Shown piece by piece: positions 13,009 to 62,036 of a stretch of DNA of 64,000 bases (position 1 is its first letter; each line of letters begins with the position of its first letter). The position numbers and the translations under genes are program-made. This stretch comes from Cliona cf. orientalis (taxonomy: Eukaryota; Porifera; Demospongiae; Clionaida; Clionaidae): assembly GCA_963930775.1 (NCBI GenBank), contig OZ005694.1, positions 5,325,054 through 5,389,053 of the forward strand, read 5' to 3'. Below the pieces are notes generated by a model. That model did no database searches. It was not told where the DNA came from and worked only from the letters and a program-made list of their open reading frames with translations.

Positions 13009-13375
13009 AATGATGAGACATCTTGACAGCTCTCTGGCTGGGCTCATCGTTGCCCCCACAAGCCGGCTCCCTTCTCACTGTGACCCAAGGCTACCTGCCG
13101 AAAGATGGAACATCTTGACAGGCTGCTGCCGAAAGATGAGACATCTTGACAGCTCTCTGGCTGGGCTCATCGTTGCCCTTCTCTTCTCACACAAGGCTAC
13201 CTGCCGAAAGATGGGACATCTTGACAGGCTGCTGCCGAAAGATGAGACATCTTGACAGCTCTCTGGCTGGGCTCATCGTTGCCCTTCTCTTCTCACACAA
13301 GGCTACCTGCCGAAAGATGGAACATCTTGACAGGCTGCTGCCGAAAGATGAGACATCTTGACAGCTCTCTTCATG
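13009..13375. repeat. minisatellite, ~106-bp unit, four partial or complete copies
   Basis: GATGAGACATCTTGACAGCT recurs at about 13,011, 13,136, 13,242 and 13,348. The last two spacings are exactly 106 bp. A half-unit GATGG.ACATCTTGACAGGC alternates with it, so the unit is itself an older duplication. The period is not a multiple of three and the frames shift, so this is not coding. Confidence 0.85.
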
Positions 13376-20698: not shown

Positions 20699-21347
20699 TA
20701 GTCTCGTAAACCAGACCCCTATTCCGCAGCGCTGGGTGTATTTCATCACCAGCACGCGGAAAGAGGGTCTGGGGATTCTGGGCACCAATCCGTGGCACAG
20801 TGGAATTTTTACGTCACGTAAACGGAATGCAATATTTTACCGCAAAACTTTTTGTTGCACCTCCTTCGAGTTCTACGCGCTGTTTATGATCCTGAACTAC
20901 TCGTTTGGACTATACTGGCTAAAAGCTATCAATAAAGTACCTAAATGTAGCAAAATCTTGAATACTTAGTCAGCGCGGCTCCTTAGCGCGTGCTTGAGTC
21001 TATTTCTGTGTCTTTTCACCATAAAAATACCTGAAAAGTCAGAAAAAAGTAGCCAAACCATCGCTGTTCAAGTAACAGTCCTCATATCTGTGCATAGACG
21101 TCCTCAAAGCGGCCTTCTGGCAAGGTTTTGCTAAAATTCGGACACTGAGCGGTGAATCGAGCAGCTTGTTAATGGCATATTTGCGGGCGCAGCATGGTCA
21201 TGTGACCATTCTGAGCGATCTCATTGGCTCTGCCGACATTCCAGTAGGTGCCACGGATTGGTGCCCAGAATTCCCAGACCCTCTTTCCGCGTGCTGGTGA
21301 TGAAATACACCCAGCGCTGCGGAATAGGGGTCTGGTTTACGAGACTA
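20699..21347. mobile_element. TAGYCTCG-family non-autonomous element, 649 bp, 10-bp target duplication
   Basis: Ends start TAGTCTCGTAAACCAGACCC and are inverted over about 100 bp (…GGGTCTGGTTTACGAGACTA). AGTCCCTGGC flanks both sides exactly (20689-20698 and 21348-21357). The interior has no transposase-like frame. Terminal sequence and duplication length match the RecQ-bearing element at 39,293-44,918. Confidence 0.85.
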
Positions 21348-28849: not shown

Positions 28850-29697
28850 CCTTGGCAGTGGATAGTGAGTCACTGTTGTTCTTGGGTGAGGTAGCTACTG
28901 CACTACCTCAACATAACCATTTTCAGCTGCCATGTGCAGCGATGTTAGCTACTCTCTCACTGTCCAAGTGCGATGGATTACAGTTACACTGTTCTACTAA
29001 GTATTTTATGACATGCAGATGTCCTCGTTGGGCAGCACCATGAAGGGTAATTCTACCTCCAACTCCAGTAGTCCTACCCTGGTACTCAATAGGTAGAGCT
29101 ATATTAGGGTCGCAGTTTAAGTTAGTGATGAAGAATTTCACTATATCTAAACATCCATTCAAAGCTGCGAGGTGGATAGGAGCTGCTCCATCTTTGCCTC
29201 TACTAGTGACTATGTCCTTGAGTGGAAGAAACTTGCTTAGTTCATCCACTAGGTATCTCACGACATTAATGTCCCCACTCTGAGAAGCTTGATGTAGTGG
29301 AGTAGAACCATTGTCAGCACAACACAGTGGATCTATCTGTTGCTCAGCAACAAGGTAGCAGAGTATTTCAAGATGTTTACCAACTGCTGCATAATGATCA
29401 TGAAGAGGTGTAAATGTAGTCTCGTGCGCCAGCCCCTCCGGCTGGCACGCGAAACTAGTGTAAATGCTCAATCGTCTTGACTTGCTGTGACATCCCCTCT
29501 CTTTGATGAAATAGCTCAGCACTCTTAATTGTCCATATAGCTAGAACTGAGTAGTGAAGTGCATTCACTCCAAACTGGCCTCCTTTCTGTAGTGGATCAA
29601 ATTGCTTCTCCTCAATGAGTTCTTTTACTTTCTTCAAGTCTCCTCTGGACGAGGCTAGGTGTAGTTTATTTTCAGTTGAGAATGGAAAATGGGACAT
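28850..29697 (-). pseudogene. ankyrin-repeat gene fragment, disrupted
   Basis: Two overlapping minus-strand frames carry ankyrin units. The upstream one (29697 to about 29560) reads NKLHLASSRGDLKKVKELIE and DPLQKGGQFGVNALHYS. The downstream one (29445 to 28923) has about four units: HDHYAAVGKHLEILCYL, STPLHQASQSGDINVVRYL, AAPIHLAALNGCLDIVKFF and ITLHGAAQRGHLHVIKYL. Just past the stop at 28923 another frame continues AAENGYVEVVQ, so a frameshift ended it. A 41-bp TAGTCTCG micro-element with a 9-bp duplication sits at 29417-29457. Ankyrin repeats bind proteins; no enzymatic domain is present. Frame changes between 29,455 and 29,560 make an active gene unlikely. Confidence 0.65.
29417..29457. 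mobile_element. 41-bp TAGTCTCG micro-element in ankyrin sequence
   Basis: TAGTCTCGTGCGCCAGCC is followed by a 5-bp spacer and an imperfect complement ending GCGAAACTA. GTGTAAATG flanks it exactly at 29408-29416 and 29458-29466. The whole element is little more than two terminal repeats. Confidence 0.8.
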
Positions 29698-35856: not shown

Positions 35857-35898
35857 TAGCCTCGTGCCCAGGCCCTTTGAGGCCTGGGTACGAGGTTA
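35857..35898. mobile_element. 42-bp TAGCCTCG micro-element
   Basis: TAGCCTCGTGCCCAGGCC, a 6-bp spacer, then the near complement ending ACGAGGTTA. GGGCTGACT flanks it exactly (35848-35856 and 35899-35907). Confidence 0.8.
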
Positions 35899-39283: not shown

Positions 39284-39292
39284 ATGATAGGG

Positions 39293-39367
39293 TAGCCTCG
39301 TACCCAGGCTCTCGGGGGGGGGGGGGAAGAGAGCCTGGTACACACTGCATGCGCATGCGCCAAATTT
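39293..39367 (+). repeat. left terminal inverted repeat of the RecQ-bearing transposon
   Basis: About 75 bp, with an internal run of roughly 12 G that is longer as C at the right end. Inverted partner at 44843-44918. Confidence 0.88.
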
Positions 39368-39482
39368 CCAGAGAATTCTATGGATTTGTAAACTCTCCGT
39401 ATTCCTCCGTGTTTGATGACGTCATGACGTGCTAGTTTGCTTAGTCAGCAACAAACCTTAATTTTGCGCTTTACCGTTTAAT

Positions 39483-40906
39483 ATGGCGAGTTCCAGCTCT
39501 TCGTTTCCTTCTACCAGTTGTTCTCATAACTTCGCTGACGGCGTGAACTATGCCTTGTCGAAGCTAGGGATGTCACATCTCGAGCTAAAGAGTCAGCAGA
39601 AGCAAGCGATTGTGGCGGTCTACGAAGGAAAAGACGTCTTTGTTTTTTTGCCAACTGGCTTCGGCAAGAGTGTGTGCTTTCAAGTGCTCCCTTTTCTATT
39701 CGATCACAAGTTAGGTCTGAGTGATGGCAGCGAGAAGAGATGCGTTATTGTGGTCTCTCCACTTGTCTCTTTGATGGTGGACCAGGTCAGGAGTCTCAAG
39801 AGTAAGGGCGTTCACGCTGTCGTCATCTCCTCGAGCTCAAGGGAGAACACCATCGTGGACAGGGAGTTTCGAGCCACGGAGACTAGCTTGTCAAGCGCTA
39901 GTCTCATCTTCTCTTCTCTGGAGGCCCTGACACATACGAAGTGGAGAGAAGCTCTGGAGAATCCTGTTGTGTCCCACCGTGTGTGTGCAGTTGTTGTAGA
40001 CGAAGCGCACTGTGTTTCAAAGTGGTAAGTGGATTTTTGATATCGAGAGTAGCTGTGTAACAATTGAAAAGAAGTATTATTTAACATTTTACATACGTAG
40101 GAGCAAAGACTTCAGACCAATGTTTGGGCGACTTGCTGAGATGCGTGCTTTTGTACCACCTGGCACTCCGTTGATGGCCTGCACAGCTACAGCATCCGTG
40201 AGTGTAAAAAAAGAAGTCATCGAGTCTCTTGAAATGACTGGCTGTGTCGAAGTTACTGCCTCTCCAGATCGGCCCAATATCTTCTATGAAGTTAAGCCAA
40301 GGTCTGATATCGACACTGATTTTCTTCCACTTGTGTCCACCTTGCGAGAGAAGTCCATCAACACTCCATGTGTCCTTGTGTACTGCCAGTCACTCGACAT
40401 GTGTGCTGACCTCTATGCTCACTTCCACTATGAGCTGGGGGAAGCATCTTACCACCCTCCTGGATCTCCATATCTCAGTGACTTTCGGCTTTTTGGCATG
40501 TTTCATGCCAGCACACCTCAACATAACAAAGATATCATCCTCAAGAGCCTTCTTGTCCCTGACGGCGTTGTGCGTGTGGTGTTTGCTACTGTTGCACTGG
40601 GTATGGGCATCGACCTCCGTGACGTGAACACAGTGATACACTATGGAGCTCCTCAGAGTCTTGAGGACTATTTCCAGGAGAGTGGTAGAGGGGGCAGGAG
40701 TGGTGGAAATGCTATCTCCACCATTTTCTGGAAGCCAGTGGACTGCCCAGTGAGGAAGACACCAACCACTCTACGAGATCATGAACTCATTACTGTCAGG
40801 CGGTATGTTGAGAATGTGCAGACGAAAGTGGCTTTTGGACTACTTTGATGTTCAAGTGGACGCACAGGCCAGTCGCTGCTGTGATAACTGCTCCAACAAG
40901 GCAATA
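39483..40906 (+). pseudogene. RecQ-type DNA helicase of the transposon, frameshifted
   Basis: Exon 1 39483..40024 and exon 2 from 40101 join across a 76-bp intron in the WSKDFRP motif. Motifs in order: a Q-rich entry LKSQQKQAI, Walker A LPTGFGKSVCFQ, VVSPLVSLMVDQV, DEAHCVSKW (DExH), MACTATAS, SPDRPNIFYEV, VLVYCQSLD, VRVVFATVALGMGID, VIHYGAPQSLEDYFQESGRG. The GRGGR arginine finger is present. After about 40,815 the frame is lost: the expected zinc-binding tail CRRKWLLDYF ... CCDNC lies in another frame, explained by loss of two bases from a GTGTG string, and the current frame stops at 40,848. A donor follows at 40,907. RecQ enzymes unwind DNA 3' to 5'; here the likely role was in transposition. 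The zinc-binding tail is out of frame. Confidence 0.83.
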
Positions 40907-41161
40907 GTGAGTGATGAGTGATCCCTTGGAGCTTTACTAGTGAGGGAGGTATGAGAGTGGCTATCACCTGTGGATGAAATCAAGTAAGTCGATTGTGTAT
41001 ACATAATTACAGTATTAAAAATACTGATAGAGATAGAAAATTGTGTGAGTTGGGCAAAATGTACTGTGAGCAGAAGTATTAGCAGTGTGTACACACATAA
41101 ACCATACAAAACTTGAAATGCAGGAAAAAGTGGATTTGCAGAGGACCAATGGCTATATGAG

Positions 41162-44100
41162 TTACATCTCAAGATCACTGGAAGCAGGACACTCGACATC
41201 ACTCTCTGACACTTCGCTGCGAATGTGGCCATTGTACTTCTGGTGCTCTTTGATCTTGGCCTTGATCCAGCTGTCAGTCTTCTTGACGTCCCACTTGTGG
41301 AGTGGATTCAGCTTCATGTCTTTAAAAGACTTGTGATGGCGACCTCCTATCTCCACCAACAGTTTGTTGTCAAGCACAGTTCTCACCACTTTCCGTACAT
41401 CACCCTTGTCCGACCTTGTGCTGTGAGCAGTTGTCCTGTGTGGCACACCCCACTGAGCATCAAAATTCTCGGTGATCTGTTGAAGAGTTGTAACACACCG
41501 TGCTGCTCTCTGCAAGGCTGATGTACTTGAGAAGCTTGTTCATGTGCTCATTGAACAAGTCACATGGGATATTGTTGCCTGCCCCTCCCCTCACGTTGAC
41601 AAACCGATGCCATTTGACTTGGTGGGCAAGGTTGGATGAGTAAATGTAGTTGGTCTGGAATTGAAGCCTCAGTGCCTCTAGAGCGTACTTAGTGCAGCCA
41701 GCTACTTTAAAGTGTGGCAAGAACAGCTTCCAGCAACGAAGTACTCTCTCTCCGTCTCCCTCGTGCCAAGCGTCAGTGAGCTCCATCACCAGAGAGCCGT
41801 AGTGACAGAGAACCCGTGCGTAATTGTACACACCATCCTCCTTGTCAGGTGCTGTCTCATGAGTGAAAGAGCCGTCAACAAGAGTGCAACGATTGACTAC
41901 AAGCCTTAATCAATGCCAACTTTTGAGCATCAGTTGCTTTGTGAATCCCAGGAGGGAGAACTGGTGGCTCATCAACAGAAGAGATCCCAAGGATGTCACA
42001 AGCACACGCAACGTAATGACCCTTCACCACAGTGTAGATGAAGTCAATGCAAGCATTGACATCCTTCTTTGGGTCGTTTGTGACAGCAACTCTGTTGAGA
42101 CGACTCCGGAAGTGAGCGAGAGTTCCATGATCTCCTGATGACTTGCCGTACTGTGCCTTCCACCAAACCTACGTGTACATAGTGGTAAGTACATGTACTG
42201 TATAGCTCCAAATTTTTGTGGTTAAGATCTTTGTTAATCTCGTGAAATTGACTCCAAATTACAAATTTCATGAATAGAAATTTGTGATTGCATGCCACTA
42301 CAATGTGTGTATACATGAACACAAACATTTCGTGAATACATTTTGTGATCATGTCTTCATGCAGTCACAAAAATCACAAAAATAATACAATTATTATACG
42401 TGTACCACAAAAAATTAGAGCTATATTATGGTATGCGAAATAATGCTTGCTGTACATAATTATGGACATTTTCCTTGTCTCAGCAATTAATTGCTGTCTA
42501 TGTTATTGTATTAAGCTAAAATTGTGACTTCATTTACAGGATCGAGCTTACTCCAATTATTGCCACAAGACCGTGCCAGTCCTCTGACACTGGCCTGAGA
42601 AGTCCGAGCCGCTCCTTGACCGTGTTGCCACACATCATGTGCCTCTGTGCTCCCACCTCCCGCTCACAAGTCAACTGGTCACCTCTGGAGACCACTGGAC
42701 GGTCGTCAGGATAGTCTTCTCCAAGGTAGCCCTGATATGCATTCATGATATCCAGCATGTCCTTGTGCTTCGCCTCATTCTTCATCAAGACATCGAGCAC
42801 AGCAACCTCAGACTTCTTGGACATTTCTGCTGAATATCGATGAAGGATATGCTTTGGGACCACCTTAGAGAAAGCAGCTAGTGAGGGGATGTACTCAGTC
42901 AGGGTACGAGCAACTAGAATGACAAGATTGTCCTTCACCGCAGCGACGTCAGCCACACTTGGCTTAAAGAGTGCTGGTAATGCATCTTTCAGCTGCGCAA
43001 TCTGACCAGCTAGTGAATGGCAACTCTGGAGCTGGAGTACGGCTTCTACCTACGATCATGCTGAACATGTGAAGCATTTCACCTTGGTTATCGGACCGGA
43101 GATCACGTACACGCTGCTGTTTGTCGAGGTTGTCCCCCCAGAACTTCAACACCACTCCCTCCTTTATCCATTTATCGACTGGAACTTTGTGCAGCTTGCT
43201 CACATCCTCTGTCAGCTTCAAGGTAGCGTTATAGCTCACACACATGTTGAGGTGGTTCAGGCGTCCGTACAGCTGCAAGAATGCCAGCTAAGTATGTAAG
43301 TTTGTCACATAAAATTGTGTACACACCCTATAGATGTATGTACATTCTCTAACTAATTAAATTTAATTATCAAGACTTGTTTCCAAATGGAGGGCACTCT
43401 TACTGCTATTGGTTATGTTCCATATATTATACAGTGTACCTGCTTCTCAGCATGGCAGGAAAACATGAGGAGAGAAACCAGGGACTGGAGACCACACATC
43501 TCACGATTCCTCTCCTTCAGTAGGATGGCGGCAACAGAGCATATCCCAGGATAGTGGGCAGCTGCTACTTTAACTGCATTCCTGTTGTCATTCCTGGATG
43601 CAATGCTGAGCAACACTGAGAAGAGCAAAGGGGCTTTCTGTTGTAGTTCTTCTGCCATATCCTTCCACTTCAAGCCAGCCAACTGATCCACAGGAATTGT
43701 GCGGTAGGGAGAAGTGGTGGTCTTGCTACACAGCTTGGAGCATTCATCATTGATCTTGTGAATCAGTTGTTTGAGAATTGCCTCTTTCACATCATCCCGC
43801 TGCAATACAGCCTTGGCAATGGATGTTGCATGACCTCCAAGGAGAGCTCTAGCAACCTTTCCTTCAGCTTGTCCTAATACTTTGGTGAAAGGCACAGGAC
43901 GGGAAGGAGTACTGACCATAATCTAATGGTACGTAGACAATCATGCATTGATATTATTTTCCCTTCTATAATGCTTACAGTTACATTTTTTCTCTGAGGA
44001 GATGCATTCTCACCTGCATGATACATATTTGTACTTGAAGTTAATATCAAATGTATTATGGGTATCAATGTACAGTGTAGGTTATGTTTTGTACCTGGTG

Positions 44101-44653
44101 CAATGCAGGATTGCGGGAGCAGAGAAGAAACAGGTGCTAATGGAAGTGGAACTTGTGCTGAGGGATTGTCCCTGTTACATAGAGGACTGTTGCTTAGCGC
44201 TTCTCTTGCTGGACTCTCTGAATGTGATATAATTACAATTATGCTATTAATTTATGCCTAATGTTAATTTACTATTCACATACTCTTAAAACATAGCCTT
44301 CGTGGAATCTTTGAACGGGGTCTTGCTCGCTGAGTGTCAGGTGATACACCGACTTCACCAGTGGTCTCCTTTGTTCTCTTTAGAGATCGCTGGACCAGCT
44401 GCATGCCACTCAATGCTGATCTCTTCAGCTCAGCTAGCTCTGTCAATGCCTTCTCCAGTGCTACAACTTTTGTCATGCATTTGGAGCAGACATGTGGTGG
44501 CATGTGGTCATCTTGGCTCACAGGTACATCCAAGAGAGTAGTGATTCTGCTTGCCCACCCCCGCTCCAGGGACTTCTTGGTGAACAGATTGGTCATATTT
44601 TTATCCACTACACTTGCCCAACAAAGCCTGCATGATAAGACTTTAGAAGCCAT
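41162..44653 (-). pseudogene. transposase of the RecQ-bearing element, multi-exon, frameshifted
   Basis: Exons 44653..44284, 44217..44095, 44013..43979, 43922..43440, 43272..42552 and 42168..41162 fit by phase apart from lesions. Exon 1 (MASKVLSCRLCWASVVDKN) has two C-x2-C pairs about 50 residues apart, like a ZAD-type finger, then a Leu/Glu helix. Exon 4 has SVLLSIASRNDN, a SVAAILLKERNREMC segment and HAEKQ. Exon 5 has VLKFWGDNLDKQQRVRD (probable first catalytic Asp), SRGDQLTCEREVGAQR and LRPVSEDWHG. Exon 6 has SSGDHGTLAHFRSRLNRV, DPKKDVNACIDF, TDAWHEGDGERVLRCWK, YALEALRLQFQ, a RFVNVRGGAGNNIPCDL-FNEH block and ALQRAARCVTTLQQITENF. I recall this signature set as a DUF6589-like transposase family in cnidarians, sponges and fungi. 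Lesions: a GTAG duplication near 43,046-43,053 and shifts near 41,890 and 41,525. Confidence 0.8.
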
Positions 44654-44842
44654 AGCGCTCCAGTAGAAAAATTTACCACATGAAGGACGATTGCACGCGC
44701 GTGTAGGCACGCAATAATTATAATGTACGCGTGTAGGTGTGTGACGCAATGCGCAAGGCCGTATACGTCATGATATCGTACTTACGCGTCATAGCGCGTG
44801 CCTATTGCGTAATGTGAATGAGCACGCGCGCGTACACGTGTT

Positions 44843-44918
44843 CGAAATTTGGCGCATGCGCATGCAGTGTGTACCACGCTCTCTTCCCCCCCCCCCCGAG
44901 AGCCTGGGTACGAGGCTA
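44843..44918 (-). repeat. right terminal inverted repeat of the RecQ-bearing transposon
   Basis: Inverted copy of 39293-39367, ending ACGAGGCTA. The internal C run is longer than the G run at the left end. Confidence 0.88.
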
Positions 44919-44927
44919 ATGATAGGG

Positions 44928-46524: not shown

Positions 46525-46584
46525 TAGTCTCGTGCCCAGCCTCTTTATCACATGCGTGCGATAAAGAGGCTGGGCACGAGACTA
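46525..46584. mobile_element. 60-bp TAGTCTCG micro-element with perfect 25-bp termini
   Basis: TAGTCTCGTGCCCAGCCTCT plus TTATC forms a perfect 25-bp inverted repeat around a 10-bp loop. GCTTCTCTC flanks both sides exactly (46516-46524 and 46585-46593). Confidence 0.88.
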
Positions 46585-48813: not shown

Positions 48814-49203
48814 TAGCCTCGTCCCCAGGCTCCCTGATCTACGCACGCATGCGAGAAAAGAGGGTGAGACTGGTATCTAATGTCACGTGCGTGACGTAGG
48901 GCCCATATGCTAGGCGGGTAGGAAGGGTGGTGGATCGTGAAAATAGCACGTGGGCGAGCGTGATTTTCGAGTGCTCAGGGTGAAAAAAAAAGCTATACTG
49001 ACTATCAGCAAGGAAGTATGATACTCAGAGGCCTCGCAGAGCTACGTTTGATCAATCAAAGATGCCAAATAGGTTTGAAATCGACGCTTTGCGGCAAGCC
49101 TAGTGCAATGCCATTATGCCAACGTTTGTCATGTGATTTTAGATACCAGGCTCCCCCTAGGCCGTGTGCGTTGAAAAAATCGGGGAGCCTGGGGACGATG
49201 CTA
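48814..49203. mobile_element. TAGCCTCG-family non-autonomous element, 390 bp
   Basis: Left end TAGCCTCGTCCCCAGGCTCC, right end the complement with one change (…GGGGACGATGCTA). CTCATGCAG before and CGCATGCAG after match at 8 of 9 positions. Interior not coding. Confidence 0.75.
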
Positions 49204-49589: not shown

Positions 49590-50000
49590 TAGCCTGGTAC
49601 CCAGGCCCATTCCCAGCTTTTCAATGTTGCACGCTGAAAAGCGGGAGGGCCTGCATGGTATCAGAAGTCACATGACCGATTTTATCCGTATGAAGGGTGG
49701 TCGAAGGGTGAAAATGAAGTTCAGGTCGCTGCTGTTCACGATCTGCTTGAGGTAAAACTTCCAAACTATCGAGAGATTGTAGTATGATCGTTTTAGACTA
49801 CAGAGAGTAACAAAATAAATTGGTAAAGTAGCTATAGGCGCGTGGCCTACAAAGCTAGCTCTTCAAAGCGACATTTTGACCGGTGCATGGTATTCGCATG
49901 CATCATCGTGATGCAAAATCACATGACTTCTGATACCTGGCCCTCCCGCATTTCAGCTTGCAACATTGAAAAGCTGGGAATGGGTCTGGGTATGACGCTA
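49590..50000. mobile_element. TAGCCTGG-ended non-autonomous element, 411 bp
   Basis: The ends TAGCCTGGTACCCAGGCCCA and complement …GGGTCTGGGTATGACGCTA are inverted over about 50 bp, continuing TTCCCAGCTTTTCAATGTTG. The flanks AGAGAGCTA and GTAGAGCTA agree at 7 of 9 positions, an eroded 9-bp duplication. No transposase. Confidence 0.7.
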
Positions 50001-60445: not shown

Positions 60446-62036
60446 TCAATCTCGTTTGCTCTTCTTGAGTCTCCTTGTTGCACAGTAGCCATCAGGGGAT
60501 AATGGCTTCTTGGGAGGTGGAGGTAAAGTTGTACCTGTAGTTACAGTACTTGTTATCATTGAGTCAGTTGGATCTATAACTGCATTAATAATAATTGGGT
60601 ATAATAATATACTGATCATCATAGCTCCATGGCAACCACTAGTCTTGTGCCCAGTCCCCTTCATGCACGCGCGAGAAAGAGTCTGGTCAAAGTTGCCAAT
60701 GCTCCAGGAATTCTCAATGTATCATTTACTGATACAGTACCACTTGAGGGATCAGTTAAAACTTCACAGCTCACTGATGAGATACTAAGTATATATAATT
60801 AGGTACATTACAAAAGAAATTTATAATACCTATAGAACATGAGGGAGCAGACTCTGACCAAAAACCATCCGTCTGGCAAATACGCTGTGAGACACCACTT
60901 ATCAAGAACCCATTGTTACAGCTGTAGGTGGCCACTGAGCCAATGGTTGTGATGGAGGCATCCACGTTGCCATTCTCTGGTGGAGGTAAAGGACCACAGC
61001 CATCCACTATCACAACTTGAGCAGTGCCACGTCCATCCACTATTTGTGATCTGGCACCAGCAGTTACAGTAACACTAAACATTTCCCTTCCCTCTATAAT
61101 TGCATCTTGTGGAATATTGATGGTAGAACATGCACCAGAGGCTGGAGTAGTGCTGGTTAATGTAACACTTGATGGTAGTGGTTGGCCATAGTCTTCAACA
61201 GCTATATGGAAAGTGATTGCAAGCGTCATTGTGCTAATTAACTCATGGCATGCATAATAATAATATTATTACACAGATCACCATACCTATGGCAGTGCCA
61301 TCTGTTGCAGATATTGTAGCTTCTGCAGTCAGTGTTAGTGCTGGATCTTGTATACCCGAGTTCATCAAGAATACTACGCAGACTGTGACATTATCATCAG
61401 CTTCATTGACAATGTAGCTATCCTGATCAAGTCCAATCAAAGCATCTAGTAATATTATAGGTTTATCATTTTTTGTAAATTTCAATATGATGTAATACTC
61501 ACTGTCATTATTTGAAATAAGAAGGATTTGTGTAGCTGTTGCGCCAGTGCTTGCTGTGGCTGTCAACGCAATGAATTCAGGTTGTTCCAAGAGATTATCA
61601 TCAACTACCATAAGATCAGTGCACTGCTGGAGTTCACTTGTGCCATCCACAAATGTCAGCATATTATTAGAAACTTAAGCTGAAAATCCTCTGGAGCTGT
61701 GGAATATATAAATAACAAATCAAGATCATAATCCACTTGCTATTAAATGTTTAACATCATTCTTACAATTTGCACTTCCTGTAGAGCTAATGGATACTAT
61801 CAGATCACTACCAGAAGGAGATGCAGAGAGATCCACACAGATTTGATATGGATCAGAACGCTCCTGTAAGTTAATTCCTTCGCTACTGCTTAGAGTCACA
61901 GCTGAACATAGAAAGGTAATACTTAATAAAACATTGAAATGATTAAAGTACAAAAGCCTGAGGATAAAGACTTACACTGTGCTGTGACATGATGGAAGAG
62001 GGCTAAAACTGCAAACATCACCTTCAAACATGACAT
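60446..62036 (-). CDS. secreted Calx-beta/Sushi-domain protein, six exons, intact
   Basis: Exons 62036..61976, 61901..61767, 61673..61503, 61445..61287, 61201..60830 and 60579..60446 are all phase-1 junctions and join without error to 343 residues. Exon 1 encodes a signal peptide (MSCLKVMFAVLALFHHVTAQ). Then come two Calx-beta-like segments: SELQQCTDLMVVDDNLLEQP to LLISNND, and LDQDSYIVNEADDNVTVCVV through DAIIEGREMFSVTV. A Sushi/CCP module follows from CGPLPPPENGNVDASITTIG to WSESAPSC with its four cysteines. The tail is Thr/Pro-rich, then basic (RRLKKSKRD). No membrane span is seen, so it is probably secreted or matrix-bound. Symmetrical phase-1 introns are typical of shuffled extracellular domains. 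It lies between coiled-coil gene copies 2 and 3. The exon 3 acceptor (CTTAAG|TT) is weak. Confidence 0.8.

Follow-up and report, generated by a model that had tools for sequence, protein, structure and literature searches.

A 64,000-bp stretch of the Cliona cf. orientalis genome (assembly GCA_963930775.1, contig OZ005694.1, forward-strand positions 5,325,054–5,389,053; here the window) contains a 5,626-bp transposon at window positions 39293–44918. The element encodes a RecQ-type helicase and a convergent transposase. It belongs to a known type of DNA transposon, AcademH, as judged against excerpts of a later description of that group, and this copy is dead. The features of the locus are as follows.

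39284–39292, no strand: left target-site duplication ATGATAGGG, 9 bp
39293–39368, plus: left terminal inverted repeat, starting TAGCCTCG
39304–39338, plus: left terminal hairpin, consisting of CCAGGCTCTC, a 15-nt G-rich loop and GAGAGCCTGG, with a 10-bp stem
39483–40028, plus: helicase exon 1, DEAD domain, with LPTGFGKS and DEAHCVSKW (domain match, motif search)
40102–40848, plus: helicase exon 2, Helicase_C (domain match); the open frame stops at 40848
40817–40891, plus: RecQ-type zinc-binding part, CRRKW...CCDNC, in a frame differing from exon 2 in the window copy
41162–42168, minus: transposase C-terminal half, DUF6589, with CDLFNEH at 41544–41564; pieces in differing frames
42534–43287, minus: transposase core, N-terminal half, with GDNLD at 43123–43137 and GDQLT at 42669–42683; frame broken
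43413–43922, minus: transposase middle exon, without a named domain
44276–44653, minus: transposase first exon, zf-AD zinc finger, with MASKV at 44639–44653
44844–44918, minus: right terminal inverted repeat, with its own hairpin and one stem mismatch
44919–44927, no strand: right target-site duplication ATGATAGGG

The left gene, with at least two exons, encodes a RecQ-type helicase. This identity, proposed in an earlier note on the letters of this DNA, was borne out by Pfam matches to DEAD (E = 5e-17) and Helicase_C (E = 2e-14); the best solved relative is WRN (E = 4e-25). The best NCBIfam model of the exons is recQ_fam, with a score under the model's whole-protein cut-off because exons were scanned one by one. 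Among the motifs quoted earlier, LPTGFGKS (39648–39671), DEAHCVSKW (39999–40025) and the transposase motifs GDNLD, GDQLT and EDWH were located, and CCDNC (40877–40891) is out of frame with the preceding helicase exon. The DEAD and Helicase_C domains are shared with the RecQ helicases WRN, BLM and RECQ1, and CRRKW...CC..C is present in relatives of the element with an open frame. Unlike those helicases, the gene sits in a transposon, its window exons gave no winged-helix or HRDC match in domain scans, and the helicase frame of the related element L041 stops a few residues past CC..C.

The right gene, on the minus strand, carries three pieces of DUF6589 (Pfam, E = 1e-4 to 7e-23), which we take to be the Academ transposase domain. 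The ZAD-like C-x2-C pairs noticed earlier in this long convergent gene match zf-AD (E = 3e-8). EDWH lies at 42573–42584 and DAWHEGDG at 41751–41774. The D of GDNLD, the D of GDQLT and the E of CDLxNE form a candidate catalytic triad. In L041 the gene has five exons with GT-AG introns and encodes 906 amino acids, in which Pfam found nothing besides zf-AD and DUF6589 at E ≤ 1. A first AlphaFold model, whose alignment was rich in C-terminal exon sequence, came out helical, with low core confidence and no useful PDB match, and a second had no Foldseek match at E ≤ 0.001. A mixed alignment was discarded for misplaced N-terminal proteins. No relatives turned up in scans of viral and prokaryote contigs, and nothing on DUF6589 was found in the accessible parts of the literature searched.

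By its reading frames the window copy is inactivated, with both genes out of frame. The CCDNC part has lost frame and the transposase pieces fall in different frames, while L002, 96% identical, stays in one open frame over the helicase zinc part and across both large transposase exons, the places at which the window copy shifts. At its tips L002 (G000 C1:34142731-34148439) is altered: both ends have longer loops, the right terminus does not resemble TAG, and no duplication is present. Differences within family D (L040, L041, and L042) amount to 7 to 26 mismatches and 1 to 28 gap columns over ~5.37 kb, and the family has therefore moved recently. Of the three, L041 and L042 have an open C-terminal exon, and in L040 this exon is split across frames.

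The inverted ends, estimated earlier at about 70 bp, measure 76 nt on the left and 75 nt on the right with 97% identity, and the duplication reported as perfect is exact at both flanks. The flanks of 39284–44927 are another interspersed repeat that hosts the element and has many genome copies (55 matches listed). When the element was removed and the flanks joined, the best match besides its own flanks was on C17 (84% identity). It spans bases 1–292 of 329 and therefore runs through the insertion point. The flank matches are read as paralogous sites without either gene, as known from alignments and not from their letters. The earlier note assigned both genes to one insertion, and copies of the surrounding repeat align across the insertion point with both genes missing (alignment only).

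Target duplications were surveyed in 45 two-ended elements, comprising 39 in a first set and 6 more distant. Left out were loci with one known end (L038, L043, L049, L053, L056, and the miniature inverted-repeat transposable element (MITE) loci L012, L017, L031, L034, and L035), the fragment L046, L060–L062, where no ends were found, and extra short or window elements. In the first set the exact duplication is 9 bp in 23 elements, 10 bp in 9 and 8 bp in 2; the 8-bp cases, L052 and L055, become 9 bp once the right end is shifted one base. L023 has one mismatch, and an exact duplication is lacking in L002, L016, L025 and the large L045 element. All six distant elements have exact duplications. 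The duplication thus recurs as the earlier note anticipated, with an exact 9 or 10 bp in 40/45 elements (9 bp in 30/45, 10 bp in 10/45, none exact in 5/45). As a control, 9 or 10 bp of the left flank of one element were compared with the right flank of another, and 0/1,482 non-self pairs among the 39 elements matched.

AcademH was reportedly founded as a group by Kojima in 2020. The resemblance to AcademH, suggested without confirmation in the note, is supported by the helicase, a transposase with tentative signs of an Asp-Asp-Glu (DDE) core, and duplications of 9 or 10 bp. The helicase and the duplications are features in common with AcademH as it appears in excerpts of citing papers, which give it 9–10-bp duplications with a helicase (PMC10045372) and low copy numbers in fungi (PMC10799480). 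AcademX belongs to the same superfamily and has a nuclease in place of the helicase and 3- or 4-bp duplications, according to the portion of PMC10045372 seen; no such element turned up among the loci read. No XPG-type nuclease, the mark of AcademX, was detected when nine exon pieces of the window and the 906-residue L041 protein were scanned with Pfam, and the duplications are 9–10 bp, not 3 or 4 bp. A Helitron was rejected, as duplications are present and no Rep domain was found in the window exon pieces scanned.

The helicase is linked to the transposase and convergent with it across most of the family. DUF6589 matches, from two sets (150 listed of 152, and 122), were built into 104 clusters, and among the matches listed a convergent helicase lies within 6 kb in 96/104. 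One cluster, a fragment inside L037, has another geometry. The remaining 7/104 have no helicase match beside them; three of these seven were read, and each contains a diverged helicase match facing the transposase, which is partial in L062. A helicase-free Academ in this genome was therefore rejected, 3/3 loci read having a helicase match. The earlier note placed the helicase inside the element, and it lies within the terminal repeats in all complete relatives read. The helicase might instead be a captured passenger or a neighboring host gene, and 31/128 helicase clusters do lack a DUF6589 match within 6 kb. This explanation is extremely improbable, being contradicted by the single orientation of the linked genes in 96/104 clusters and by helicases that lie inside the ends even where transposases are only ~30–35% identical.

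Comparison among families shows that each end bears a predicted hairpin-forming palindrome near its tip, in which some pairs have changed on both sides between families. Hairpin folding is possible at the ends of every family read. Folding of 88 ends, 45 of them distinct within the first 58 nt, placed a stem beginning near nt 12 in 43/45 distinct ends; the two L002 ends have no such stem within the first 58 nt. The outer arm of main-clade ends reads CCAGGC and then TC, GC or CC, and the inner arm is complementary. Pairing was compared using one end from each of 15 families, and 95.9% of cells are paired. Pair 18-45 is T-A in 7 families, C-G in 6 and G-C in 2 and is broken in none. Pair 21-42 is split between C-G and T-A, with 6 families each, and is unpaired in 1 and gapped in 2; pair 20-43 is unpaired in 5 of 15. 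On the transposase tree, with states entered by hand, these patterns need at least 3 changes at pair 18-45 and at least 2 at pair 21-42. No shuffle reached the observed covariation score or the observed share of paired cells. L057–L059 and L063–L066 have different stems at the same place. With one end tested per family, stem length exceeds shuffles at 5% in 18/23 families, and not in L058, L059, L063, L064 and L066, where stems are interrupted. For 22 elements, 34/44 ends are among the lowest 2% of internal windows by folding energy. Ends forming G-quadruplexes, suggested by the G-rich loop of the window family, were rejected, as the hairpins of L057–L059 and L063–L066 have no G-rich loop.

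The arms could instead serve as paired inverted sites at which the transposase, or its zf-AD finger, binds double-stranded DNA. Arms would then change together as protein specificity drifts, and the hairpin would be a by-product. This is a serious rival, somewhat improbable on balance. Paired changes are also predicted by binding sites, the inner arm partly repeats the outer terminus in inverted orientation, and zf-AD domains are able to dimerize. As to the hairpins themselves, the count of double-changed pairs is ordinary against shuffles (260/500), pair types are fewer than in shuffles, and 7/10 pairs are invariant. Folding z-scores against dinucleotide shuffles have a median of -1.13, with only 12/44 ends below -2 and strong values only in L063–L066 (-3.0 to -7.2), so for the main clade folding energy counts as weak evidence when taken by itself. 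The hairpins of the main clade span 34 to 40 nt, with steps of one nucleotide, and those of the L058 and L063–L066 types span 48 to 68 nt. Such a variable span is ill-suited to binding sites in a fixed helical phase and is mild evidence against two rigidly phased duplex sites. In L063–L066, moreover, pairing extends into the loop, stems reach ~68 nt, and nested inner stems also show paired differences, as judged by eye.

The reading we consider probable is an AcademH-type element with hairpin-forming ends that moves by DDE cut-and-paste transposition and whose helicase acts on the structured ends. The transposase would cut and join by DDE chemistry with a 9–10-bp stagger. With less assurance, the ends, as hairpins or cruciforms, may be unwound or resolved by the helicase at the stage of end recognition, excision or joint repair. 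The hairpins would be a candidate substrate for the helicase-assisted mechanism that the earlier note proposed. Alternatively, the helicase might serve a later step, such as donor-gap repair or replication through joints, unrelated to the hairpins. RecQ helicases act widely in repair, and no result contradicts such a role, which nevertheless leaves the hairpins unexplained; we regard it as rather doubtful. In the portion seen, PMC10045372 ties the duplication lengths of Academ lineages to a helicase or a nuclease and offers no mechanism.

The window also contains smaller elements related to the transposon.

20699–21347, no strand: 649-bp non-autonomous relative, hairpin ends, 10-bp duplication AGTCCCTGGC
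29417–29457: 41-bp single-hairpin element with duplication GTGTAAATG; over its first 23 nt it matches an L059 end at 96% identity
30065–30875, no strand: 811-bp non-autonomous relative, hairpin ends, 9-bp duplication GGAGTCGCC
35857–35898: 42-bp single-hairpin element with duplication GGGCTGACT; over its first 26 nt it is identical to L055 ends
46525–46584: single-hairpin element, 60 bp, duplication GCTTCTCTC; in a family of short copies
48814–49203: third non-autonomous element, same kind of ends, single-mismatch duplication

Lone left ends of the same kind lie at 49590, where the best partner (50000) gives a duplication with two mismatches, and at 60640, with no partner found within 9 kb. 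Separately, CAAGGCTA is repeated every 106 bp at 13093–13305 (ends 13093, 13199, and 13305) in similar surroundings, which suggests a tandem repeat.

The 41-, 42- and 60-bp elements each consist of one hairpin with TA...TA ends and an exact 9-bp duplication. The scan for single-hairpin elements covered 323,941 bases in 58 sequences; a stricter pattern with an exact duplication matched the window 3 times and none of 200 shuffled windows. For the 60-bp family, 20/24 further long matches were fetched, and a script found 7 exact and 5 one-mismatch duplications (control, 0/342 cross pairs). Among these 20, L083 is exact with hand-set ends, L077 is one indel off by eye, and six have no duplication. 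The end motif TAGCCTCGNNCCCAGGC occurs 1,661 times forward and 1,668 times reverse, with 0 occurrences of the reversed control. Nine pairs lie <125 bp apart among the first 100 ends listed; eight were fetched, of which four have exact duplications (L088, L092, L093, and L094) and four do not.

These 41–60-bp elements are probably deletion products running from the outer arm of one end to the inner arm of the other. Solo long terminal repeats (LTRs) offer an analogy, in that one terminal unit and the target duplication remain after internal deletion; here that unit is the hairpin from one end of a DNA transposon, and the deletion route is conjectural. That the short elements are themselves mobile, not remnants of larger ones, is unlikely. 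Mobility is favored by L071 and L072, identical 57-bp copies on different contigs with different exact duplications, and by the duplications of the fetched short copies. Deletion between direct repeats of the outer and inner arms, as for solo LTRs, would however yield the same short product. The end motif of the 60-bp family also occurs in 19 pairs 626–649 bp apart among 100 of 226 listed places, so larger parents exist. Arms match family ends in 10/11 short elements compared; for L087, L092, L094 and window 35857 the matching ends are those of larger families, and the exception, window 46525, matches none of the ends compared.

A bolder proposal, which we advance tentatively and hold doubtful, is that AcademH ends are recognized or processed as folded hairpins, which the carried RecQ helicase opens or resolves, in a structure-guided DDE transposition. 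Single-hairpin elements would then be minimal substrates, and possibly mobile because ends 41–60 bp apart on stiff duplex could hardly pair. In the accessible parts of the literature searched, nothing on point was found for terminal hairpins of Academ elements, hairpin ends with RecQ, sponge MITE hairpins or the smallest MITEs. New here are the genome-wide helicase linkage, the duplication survey, the end hairpins with paired changes, and the 41–60-bp single-hairpin elements; the hairpins are not claimed to be unpublished.

We know of no established reason for the presence of a helicase in some cut-and-paste transposons. Hairpins kept at the cut sites are a concrete candidate substrate for the carried helicase. 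Near-identical, apparently recent copies and many short derivatives are present in one genome and therefore make the question testable.
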